A program made the translations under genes and the position numbers. This document shows positions 47,974 to 50,821 of a DNA stretch of 64,000 nucleotides, in pieces (positions within the stretch are counted from its first letter, which is position 1; every line of letters begins with the position of its first letter). This stretch comes from an uncultured Pelagibacteraceae bacterium. Lineage in GTDB: Bacteria > Pseudomonadota > Alphaproteobacteria > Pelagibacterales > Pelagibacteraceae. Under the pieces are notes generated by a model. The model was given only the letters and a program-made list of their open reading frames with translations. It was not told the DNA's origin and ran no database searches. The stretch spans positions 1-64,000 of the forward strand of contig CACKBP010000001.1 of assembly GCA_902598315.1 (NCBI GenBank), read 5' to 3'.

Positions 47974-49103
47974 TGAAAAAAAAAATAGCAATCATTGGCG
48001 CTGGTATAGCAGGTTTAACTTTTGCAAATTTGATTAAGAAAAATTCTGATCATGAGTTTATGCTGTATGAAAAACAAGAAAGCTTATCCCTTGATGAAGG
48101 GTTTGGAATTCAACTTTCAACGAATAGCATTAAAATTTTAAATCAAATTGACTTTAATAAGATAAACGATATGAAAATATTTCAACCCAAAGCAGTTGAT
48201 TTTTATAATATTCAAAATAAAAAAATTTGTGATTTAGATTTAACACAATTTAATACAGATCAGAGCAAATATACAACATTGCAAAGATCAACCTTAATAG
48301 AGTTTTTAAAAGATGAAGTTTATACTCAACACCTAAGATTCGGAAAAAAAATAAAAGAAGTTTCTGAACTAAAAGGCAAGGTGCTTATCAAATTCGAAGA
48401 TAACACAAACGATCTTGTTGACATAGTTATCGGAGCTGATGGAATTTTTTCAAATACAAAATCTTTCTTTGAAAAGAAAAAAAATGAACCTAAATTTAAA
48501 AAAGCAGTAGCTGTTAGAACGATGCTTAAATCAAAATCTAATCTTATGATAGATGAAGAAAATATTAGTCTTATGATGGGAAAAAATTGCCACGTTGTTA
48601 TTTATCCCGTAAATAAAAACAAAGAACTAAATGTTGTTTGTATTATTAGAGAAAAAAAATATGATCCTGATAATATTAAATCATTGGTTGGTAAAGTTGT
48701 TGTACAAAATTCTGATTTAGAAAAAGTTTTTGAAGGAAATTTGAGCTCTTGGCCTTTATATTCCACGCCTTCAATACTTCCATCTACAAATAGTAAAGTT
48801 TTTTATATAGGAGATGCTTTTAATGGATTTTTACCAACTTTAGCTCAAGGCGCAGGGCAATCGATAGAGAGTGCCTATGAGTTATTTAATTTAATTAAAG
48901 AAGATAAGACAGAAATCCAGAACACTTATTTTCAAGAGAGATCTAGAAGAGCAAAGATAGTAAAGAGAAGATCGAATATTAATTTTTTTGCTTTCCATTT
49001 TTCTAGCTCAATTATGCAAGTAATTAGGAACTTTTTTATAAAATTTTTAGTTAAAAGAAGGAGTTTTATTAGTTCTTATTTAGGCACAGTATATAAAAAC
49101 TAA
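47973..49103 (+). CDS. FAD-dependent monooxygenase (aromatic hydroxylase family)
   Basis: Flavoprotein of 376 residues with the N-terminal AIIGAGIAGLTFANL, the middle DG motif VIGADGIFSNTKS and the C-terminal FAD motif FYIGDAFNGFLPTLAQGAGQSIESA. This is the p-hydroxybenzoate hydroxylase-type layout shared by ubiquinone ring hydroxylases and salicylate-type hydroxylases. A role in ubiquinone synthesis is possible but unproven. Its ATG overlaps the mutY stop by 1 base and its end overlaps the convergent ccrM by 4. Confidence 0.85.
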   Translation: MKKKIAIIGAGIAGLTFANLIKKNSDHEFMLYEKQESLSLDEGFGIQLSTNSIKILNQIDFNKINDMKIFQPKAVDFYNIQNKKICDLDLTQFNTDQSKYTTLQRSTLIEFLKDEVYTQHLRFGKKIKEVSELKGKVLIKFEDNTNDLVDIVIGADGIFSNTKSFFEKKKNEPKFKKAVAVRTMLKSKSNLMIDEENISLMMGKNCHVVIYPVNKNKELNVVCIIREKKYDPDNIKSLVGKVVVQNSDLEKVFEGNLSSWPLYSTPSILPSTNSKVFYIGDAFNGFLPTLAQGAGQSIESAYELFNLIKEDKTEIQNTYFQERSRRAKIVKRRSNINFFAFHFSSSIMQVIRNFFIKFLVKRRSFISSYLGTVYKN

Positions 49104-50173
49104 TTTTGTTTTTCCGAGATAAATTTTTGCCTTAAACTATCAATTATTACAGTTGATCCATTAAGATTATAATGCCAATAAGTCCAACCGTTATAACTTT
49201 CTGCTCCCATTATCTTTGCTGCAATCTTATGTATTGAACCTGCAATATCCTTGTATTTTATACTTCCATCTGCCCTTATTTTTGCATTAATCTTTTTCTT
49301 CGGATCAAATAAAGATGTTCCAGGCTTAATTATTCCTAATTCCACAAGCGAACCAAAAGGTACTCTAGGTTTTGATTTATTATTTCCAATAGTATCTAGA
49401 TAGTCATCAGCTATTTTTTTAGTTTTATTAATTCTCTTATTAGCTGCAATAAAATATTTTTTATCTTTCTCGATTCCATAGTAATTTCTTCCTAGCTTTT
49501 TGGACACAACTGCTGTGGTCCCAGTACCTAAAAAGGGATCAAATATCGTATCACCTTTATTAGTAGTTGCTAATATAATTCTATGAAGAAGGGCTTCTGG
49601 CTTTTGAGTGGAATGTATTTTTTTTCCATTTTTCTTCAGTCTCTCTTTCCCATTACAAACAGGTAATGTCCAATCCGATCTCATTTGCAAATCATCGTTA
49701 AAACACTTAAGAGATTGGTAATTAAAAGTATATTTTGATTTTTTATTTTTTGAAGCCCAAATTAAAGTTTCATGAGCATTAGTAAATCTTGTTCCCTTAA
49801 AATTAGGCATTGGATTATTTTTTCTCCAAATAACGTCATTAAGCAACCAATAACCTAAATTTTGCAAGTGATAACCTAGCCGGAAAATATTGTGATAGGA
49901 TCCCATTACCCAAATAGATCCATCATCTTTTAAAATTCTTTTACATTCTGTTAACCAAGACTTACAAAATTCATCGTAATGTTTGAAACTATTAAACTGA
50001 TCCCAATTATCATTAACACCGTTTACTTTACTAGAATCTGGACGTGTTAATTTTTCACCAATCTGCATGTTGTAAGGTGGATCAGCAAAAACTAAATTAA
50101 AAGTTTTGTCTGGAATTTTTTTTAATTCTTTTAAACAATCGCCATTAATTAATTTATTAGAAAATTTCAACAT
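49100..50173 (-). CDS. ccrM: Cell-cycle DNA methyltransferase, GANTC type
   Basis: Methylates adenine in GANTC and in alphaproteobacteria links replication to gene expression. The 357-residue beta-class enzyme has the catalytic DPPY at 31-34 (LVFADPPYNM), the SAM-binding DPFLGTGTTAVV later on, and the C-terminal domain special to CcrM (RVPFGSLVELGII, then IRADGSIKY and SYNGWTYWHY). Four GANTC sites lie in the 78 bases upstream, two of them in a perfect inverted repeat 6 bases before the ATG, which suggests autoregulation by methylation. No restriction partner is nearby. Confidence 0.95.
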   Translation of the reverse strand: MLKFSNKLINGDCLKELKKIPDKTFNLVFADPPYNMQIGEKLTRPDSSKVNGVNDNWDQFNSFKHYDEFCKSWLTECKRILKDDGSIWVMGSYHNIFRLGYHLQNLGYWLLNDVIWRKNNPMPNFKGTRFTNAHETLIWASKNKKSKYTFNYQSLKCFNDDLQMRSDWTLPVCNGKERLKKNGKKIHSTQKPEALLHRIILATTNKGDTIFDPFLGTGTTAVVSKKLGRNYYGIEKDKKYFIAANKRINKTKKIADDYLDTIGNNKSKPRVPFGSLVELGIIKPGTSLFDPKKKINAKIRADGSIKYKDIAGSIHKIAAKIMGAESYNGWTYWHYNLNGSTVIIDSLRQKFISEKQN

Positions 50174-50179
50174 TTTCTA

Positions 50180-50251
50180 GATTCAACTTCAAATTGAATC
50201 AAGGGTCAAATGATTTTAGAAAAAAAATGAGTCCTCTTGTGTTTGAGATTC
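50180..50251 (-). promoter_or_regulatory. Cluster of four GANTC sites in front of ccrM
   Basis: GANTC sites occur at 50180-50184 (GATTC), 50196-50200 (GAATC), 50229-50233 (GAGTC) and 50247-50251 (GATTC). The first two form the perfect inverted repeat GATTCAA / TTGAATC with a 7-base spacer (50180-50200), 6 bases from the ATG. A TAAAAT at 50218-50213 on the - strand could be the -10 box, which would put the inverted repeat in the leader. Confidence 0.65.
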
Positions 50252-50821
50252 TTAACTCGACAATATCTTGTGTATTGGTTTAAAACCTTTTCTATGGTGC
50301 GAGGTTACACCAAATTTTTTTAATCCCTCAAGATGAGCTTTAGTACCATAACCAAAATTTCTCTCCCATGCATAATTAGAAAATTTTTCAGATAATCTTA
50401 TCATAAACCTGTCGCGATAAACTTTTGCAATAATTGAAGCTGCACTAATAACTTTTATTTTCTCATCTCCATTAATAATCGTTTTACAATTTTTTAAACC
50501 TTTTGGCACAAAATTTCCATCTATCAATATTAAGTTTGGTTTTATTTCAAGATTTTCGATTGCTCTTTTCATCGAAAGGAGTGACGCACCTAAAATATTA
50601 AATTTTAAAATTTCATCCACAGATGCTATTCCAATTGAAAAGAAAGAGTTTATTTTAATATGATCAGAAATTTCTTGTCTTTTTTTAAATGAGATTTTTT
50701 TAGAGTCTCTCAAAAGATTTAATTTTATACCATCTTTTAATATTACGGCTGCAGACACTACCGGACCCGCAAGACAGCCTCTCCCAACTTCATCTACACC
50801 TGCTGTAAATAATTTGTTCAA
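50252..50821 (-). CDS. rnhB: Ribonuclease HII
   Basis: Cuts at ribonucleotides embedded in DNA and in RNA-DNA hybrids. The 189-residue product starts with the family signature AGVDEVGRGCLAGPVVSAAVI (Asp and Glu of the active site), followed by LRDSKKI, LIDGN and ISAASIIAKVYRDR, and FGYGTKAHLEGL. It begins directly after the uracil-DNA glycosylase stop (0-base gap) and ends next to the GANTC cluster of ccrM. The order RNase HII next to ccrM is common in alphaproteobacteria. Confidence 0.96.
   Translation of the reverse strand: MNKLFTAGVDEVGRGCLAGPVVSAAVILKDGIKLNLLRDSKKISFKKRQEISDHIKINSFFSIGIASVDEILKFNILGASLLSMKRAIENLEIKPNLILIDGNFVPKGLKNCKTIINGDEKIKVISAASIIAKVYRDRFMIRLSEKFSNYAWERNFGYGTKAHLEGLKKFGVTSHHRKGFKPIHKILSS

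Follow-up and report, generated by a model that had tools for sequence, protein, structure and literature searches.

Conserved GANTC sites in the predicted core promoter of ccrM across Pelagibacterales point to a possible CtrA-free methylation switch in SAR11 bacteria

We looked at the region upstream of ccrM in a 64,000-nucleotide stretch of DNA (hereafter the window) from a SAR11 (Pelagibacteraceae) genome, whose nearest relatives are Pelagibacteraceae single-cell genomes. The gene had been named ccrM in an initial annotation made from the sequence, and both its Pfam domains (N6_N4_Mtase and RAMA) and its top NCBIfam model, CcrM (E 8e-170), agree with that name; the match of 564 bits is under the cut-off of 830 of this Caulobacter-tuned model. 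The spacer between ccrM and its neighbour rnhB is 78 bp long (50174-50251), with the ccrM ATG at 50173 on the minus strand and the rnhB end at 50252. A site scan found GANTC at 50180, 50196, 50229 and 50247, the four positions first reported, and the repeat GATTCAA-N7-TTGAATC proved to be a perfect inverted repeat 6 bases from the ccrM ATG, as claimed. Genera are labelled g1 to g11 and families f1 and f2, the window belonging to g1. The features of the locus are as follows:

49100 to 50173, minus strand: ccrM, adenine DNA methyltransferase of 357 aa with N6_N4_Mtase and RAMA domains
50173 to 50174, minus strand: predicted transcription start, about 7 nt past the -10, on the first base of the ATG or the base preceding it, placed from the distance between -10 and ATG
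50180 to 50184: GANTC over the putative -10, forming the right arm of the inverted repeat and retained by 80 of the 88 species of the genus
50181 to 50186, minus strand: putative -10 hexamer TTGAAT, without A at position 2, invariant in 88 species and overlapping the right GANTC arm
50182 to 50198: 17-bp palindrome TTCAAY-N5-RTTGAA (TTCAATTTGAAGTTGAA on the minus strand), candidate operator of a dimeric regulator
50196 to 50200: GANTC 3 bp downstream of the putative -35, forming the left arm of the inverted repeat and retained by 80 of the 88 species of the genus, with an equivalent in 34 of 36 g6 species
50204 to 50209, minus strand: putative -35 hexamer, TTGACC in 94 of 95 loci, with 17-bp spacing to the -10 in 95 of 95
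50210 to 50228, minus strand: T-tract followed by an A-tract, adjoining the -35 on its upstream side and UP-element-like, with near-invariant T and A columns
50229 to 50233: upstream GANTC about 20 bp before the -35; 51 of the 86 unique spacers of the genus hold a GANTC in that stretch, and 4 middle bases occur
50247 to 50251: upstream GANTC abutting the rnhB stop codon; that stretch holds a GANTC in 57 of 86 unique same-genus spacers
50252 to 50821, minus strand: rnhB (ribonuclease HII), upstream neighbour of ccrM on the same strand

The four sites had been described as an excess over expectation, and their non-random nature is confirmed and stronger than first described. GANTC is depleted in the window as a whole (103 observed against 175 in dinucleotide shuffles), and the ccrM spacer contains four sites where 0.13-0.15 are expected. 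The Poisson probability of at least four is 0.9-1.9e-5 for this one spacer and weakens to about 1e-2 once the choice of one spacer from 64 kb is counted; the conservation data are independent of that caveat. All 38 spacers of the window together hold eight GANTC, four of them in the ccrM spacer, and other clusters of equal length in the window reach two GANTC at most. Moreover, the layout GANTC-N11-GANTC, a pair 16 bp apart, occurs at a single place in the 939-kb genome. When the region upstream of ccrM was compared across SAR11, GANTC was found to recur through most of Pelagibacterales.

Among 79 ccrM genes from 80 g1 loci, 77 have a GANTC no more than 45 bp from the start and 65 have two; of 612 other genes at these loci, 12 have such a site. 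Both core sites were kept in 72 of the 86 unique g1 promoters, one in 12 and none in 2. The site between -35 and -10 is also found in g6, where it is GANTC in 34 of 36 species with A, C, G or T as middle base, and where it slides by 1 bp between lineages to lie 2 or 3 bp from the -35; a GAGTC over the -10 is kept in 35 of these 36 species. Such drift of the middle base and such sliding, with GANTC itself kept, would be the signature of selection for methylation, and among the explanations considered only selection for GANTC seems to account well for them. Sites 2-4 bp past the -35 were seen in g1, g6, g7, g9 and most of f2, and sites touching the -10 in g1, g6, g10, half of g8 and all of f2; the second family shows a comparable placement at about 57-60% CcrM identity. 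Two observations were made in passing. In g9 (L109-L112, L144-L146), the palindrome and the left GANTC are kept, but each of the six genomes seen reads GAATT in place of the right GAATC; one methylation site has been lost throughout the genus. In a complete g8 genome (G175:C1:621783-622831; L169, L172), ccrM appears to be split in two: residues 4-299 and residues 289-353 match separate stretches with stops between them, and its C-terminal RAMA part looks broken or mis-sequenced.

The conserved element upstream of ccrM is very probably a promoter, judging from its layout. TTGAC, 17 bp, TTGAAT, 6-7 bp and the start codon follow one another in 95 of 95 g1 loci. The same plan, TTGAC with a -10-like hexamer 17 bp further on and close to the start codon, was found in ten other genera and in two families, and it persists although CcrM identity drops to about 57% (at loci L168 and L211, the promoter is visible just upstream of the TTGAC picked by the script). 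The -10-like hexamer is TCTAAT in g6 and g10, TCTATT or TTTATT in g5 and g8, and CATATT in most of f2; the TTGAAT of g1 occupies the same position as TCTAAT/TCTATT in g6, g10, g5 and g8. A consensus promoter scan called no -10 at the g1 TTGAAT, in which the A at the second position is missing. This distance from the consensus fits an activator-dependent promoter and is also the main weakness of the promoter assignment. The conserved T-tract and A-tract upstream of the -35 resemble an UP element. Since the start predicted for g1 and for most f2 loci coincides with the ATG or lies a few bases from it at most, a leaderless mRNA is expected there, and the ccrM mRNA of g1 is probably leaderless; the promoter position in g6 would give a leader of roughly ten bases. 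The sites had initially been assigned to the leader of ccrM, and this did not hold: the two best conserved ones lie in the core promoter, one 3 bp after the -35 and the other over the -10. In this they differ from those of Caulobacter ccrM, whose two GANTC are said (Stephens et al. 1995) to lie 3' of the promoter.

We then considered the proteins that could act on these sites. GcrA is a reader of methylated GANTC at promoters, to which it binds in a methylation-dependent manner (PMC3667746). The protein is encoded in 29 of the 30 genomes searched, which include all 11 genera, the single miss being a fragmented g7 assembly. CtrA turns on ccrM transcription in Caulobacter (PMC2217572). Ca. P. 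ubique is reported to lack this regulator (PMC2877005, PMC7987155), and reading of the ccrM spacer gave no CtrA box (TTAA-N7-TTAA). Few GcrA targets have been predicted in Ca. P. ubique (PMC7987155). In the window's genome, the pattern TTGAC-N1-10-GANTC, the only layout tried, gave 36 matches against 47 in the reversed control, and thus no sign of a GcrA promoter class of that layout beyond ccrM. Almost no GANTC was found upstream of gcrA in the stretches read (L108, L235-L263; the start codon could not be placed in every locus), so methylation feedback would act on ccrM and not on gcrA.

Altogether, we propose, with a probability of about 0.6, that the core promoter of ccrM carries a methylation-sensitive autoregulatory switch that is read by GcrA and free of CtrA. 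According to this model, which is built on sequence comparison, sigma70-RNA polymerase would use TTGACC, the 17-bp spacer and the poor -10 TTGAAT to produce a leaderless ccrM mRNA. Because the core GANTC sites lie inside this promoter, the one 3 bp after the -35 and the one overlapping the -10, CcrM would methylate its own promoter. Replication would leave both core sites hemimethylated until CcrM restores them, and GcrA would most likely relay the methylation state to sigma70-RNA polymerase. GcrA and RNA polymerase would respond to hemimethylation, and the accumulation of CcrM would bring back full methylation, closing a feedback loop without CtrA. The distance between ccrM and parB is about 180-340 kb in ten single-contig genomes with chromosomes of 1.2-1.5 Mb; provided that parB sits on the origin side, the fork would reach ccrM part-way along the arm. 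The initial proposal that CcrM senses the methylation of its own upstream region is thus kept in part: conserved GANTC and GcrA are both there, and the sensing would take place in the core promoter instead of a leader, with repression by full methylation and once-per-cycle control as possible features. Against the switch stand both g5 genomes and 2 of the 4 g8 genomes, which have GcrA and CcrM but no core-promoter GANTC, as well as the inner bases of the palindrome, on which the constraint is stronger than on the GANTC-defining bases.

Among the closest known arrangements is that of the Caulobacter ctrA P1 promoter, and in the simplest form of the model ccrM itself would carry a switch of the ctrA P1 kind. 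GANTC between -35 and -10 defines a distinct timing class in Caulobacter, and ctrA P1, with its GANTC at -28/-29, is activated by hemimethylation (PMC4287350). The SAR11 promoter likewise belongs to a cell-cycle gene and has a GANTC just past the predicted -35, at about -26, with sites between or touching the predicted -35 and -10 and with GcrA encoded in the genome. It differs in that P1 has one GANTC and controls ctrA, whereas in SAR11 the gene is ccrM, the core GANTC are usually two, and a palindrome and a predicted leaderless start are present. As for Caulobacter ccrM, methylation most probably acts on it too (PMC3973325), and this probable control by GANTC methylation of its own control region is the likeness to the SAR11 gene (PMC3973325; PMC2217572), in which GANTC of the control region is conserved beyond chance. 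Contrarily, transcription of ccrM is CtrA-driven in Caulobacter, and no CtrA box is visible in the ccrM spacer of the window. The GcrA targets mipZ, ftsZ and podJ also have GANTC in or next to the core promoter, two of them juxtaposed in mipZ (PMC3667746); a comparable class was not seen in the SAR11 genome with the one pattern tried.

Methylation could also serve as a constant activating mark, GcrA on fully methylated sites keeping ccrM on in a positive feedback that checks maintenance, without any timing by hemimethylation. GcrA prefers fully methylated over hemimethylated GANTC (PMC3667746), full methylation gives the highest activity of ftsZ in Caulobacter (PMC8116508), and the poor -10 of g1 suggests a promoter in need of an activator. 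However, hemimethylation activates ctrA P1, whose GANTC has almost the same location (PMC4287350, PMC8116508), and transcription of Caulobacter ccrM is said to take place from hemimethylated DNA exclusively (PMC2217572). We regard a constant mark as rather unlikely and prefer methylation-sensitive control through GcrA, in which, on the simplest model, hemimethylation would be the trigger.

The inverted repeat was first read as a pair of GANTC. The sites are indeed conserved, but the repeat of g1 seems to be kept for a reason beyond GANTC. The most rigid feature of g1 is ATTCAATTT-N3-GTTGAAT, with zero changes in 88 species on the ccrM tree, against eight at the outer G and eight at the outer C by which GANTC is completed; as a yardstick, third codon positions change about 12 times on the same 88-species tree. 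Since the inner bases of the palindrome tolerate less change than the outer G and C, a second operator is probably superimposed on the GANTC pair in g1, and a second dimeric regulator, perhaps NtrX, would probably bind TTCAAY-N5-RTTGAA, fused there with that pair. The sequence (A)TTCWAY-N5-GTTGAA was found at ccrM in g5, g8, g9 and g10, including genomes without any remaining GANTC, and g6 has an almost invariant TTCAATC-N4-GGTTGAC over the -35, in which N4 prefers A/G before GG. The position of the palindrome relative to the promoter varies by genus, and this overlap with different promoter parts likens it to repressor operators. In the window's genome, the perfect palindrome occurs at ccrM only; there were 39 copies with one mismatch, as compared with 20 in the control, almost all of them within genes, and a regulon of the palindrome was not retained. 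We tentatively suggest, at well under even odds, a composite switch of g1 dedicated to ccrM alone, with the operator palindrome fused base for base with two GANTC and the -10; a protein dimer, methylation and RNA polymerase would then compete over the same 21 bp, in place of the CtrA-based timing known from other Alphaproteobacteria.

If the palindrome were instead the main element, a dimeric regulator, with the response regulator NtrX as candidate, would repress ccrM, and the core GANTC of g1 would be partly a by-product of the outer bases. This is consistent with the unchanged inner bases, with the persistence of the palindrome at ccrM in g5 and g8 despite the loss of GANTC there, and with its overlap of different promoter parts in different genera. 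Moreover, the CA-N9-TG core of the 17-bp palindrome has the geometry of the Rhodobacter sphaeroides NtrX motif GCA-N9-TGC, ccrM transcripts are higher in Sinorhizobium meliloti ntrX mutants (PMC9223101), and NtrX is present in SAR11 (PMC13198564). However, such a reading leaves unexplained the g6 GANTC with its varying middle base, the palindrome being elsewhere there, and the GANTC of g7 and f2, both without palindrome. A single perfect copy, with one-mismatch copies almost all coding, would be odd for a global regulator like NtrX. As to the motif, CAA-N7-TTG matches the exact letters of neither GCA-N9-TGC nor the CAA-N2-5-TTG of Brucella and Sinorhizobium, whose spacing range it exceeds, and its geometry fits Rhodobacter only. 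A palindrome acting as the main element appears doubtful to us, and we keep the GcrA-read switch as the preferred reading.

The inverted repeat could further act as an RNA hairpin that controls translation of a read-through rnhB-ccrM mRNA, and it does fold into a 9-bp hairpin just before the AUG; this is very improbable, given an ordinary fold energy (z -0.36), a fixed T-T mismatch in the stem and no compensatory changes in g5 and g8, a repeat far from the ATG in g6, and a strict 17-bp spacing to TTGACC, which is a constraint on DNA and not on RNA. The search for known RNA families gave only a sub-threshold match to the Rfam family ToxI inside rnhB (50279-50316, minus strand; 23 bits versus 50), which is probably due to chance. 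Finally, chance clustering is hardly credible, even for a site of five bases with one free position in one spacer chosen out of 64 kb, in view of a P of about 1e-5 for the spacer, the strong conservation across species and genera, by which it is refuted for the core sites, and the enrichment of the upstream sites as well (on average 1.26 GANTC in the 48 bp before the -35 in g1, versus 0.10 in shuffles).

Apart from ccrM, thyX, which encodes the thymidylate synthase ThyX, has GATTCAATA directly in front of its start codon in four of the four genomes examined, from three genera (G000:C1 near 119794, L185:1496-1520; L292, L300, L301). In Caulobacter, thymidylate synthase is an essential gene with a conserved promoter GANTC and its expression falls without CcrM (PMC3973325). 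thyX may be a second CcrM-linked gene in SAR11.

SAR11 is among the most abundant bacterial groups and has few transcriptional regulators and no reported CtrA. As to how these bacteria time DNA methylation, a conserved 30-bp promoter with CcrM sites makes a CtrA-free loop directly testable. The drift between genera, with sites sliding, being lost or fused with another operator, would provide a natural record of how such a switch evolves.
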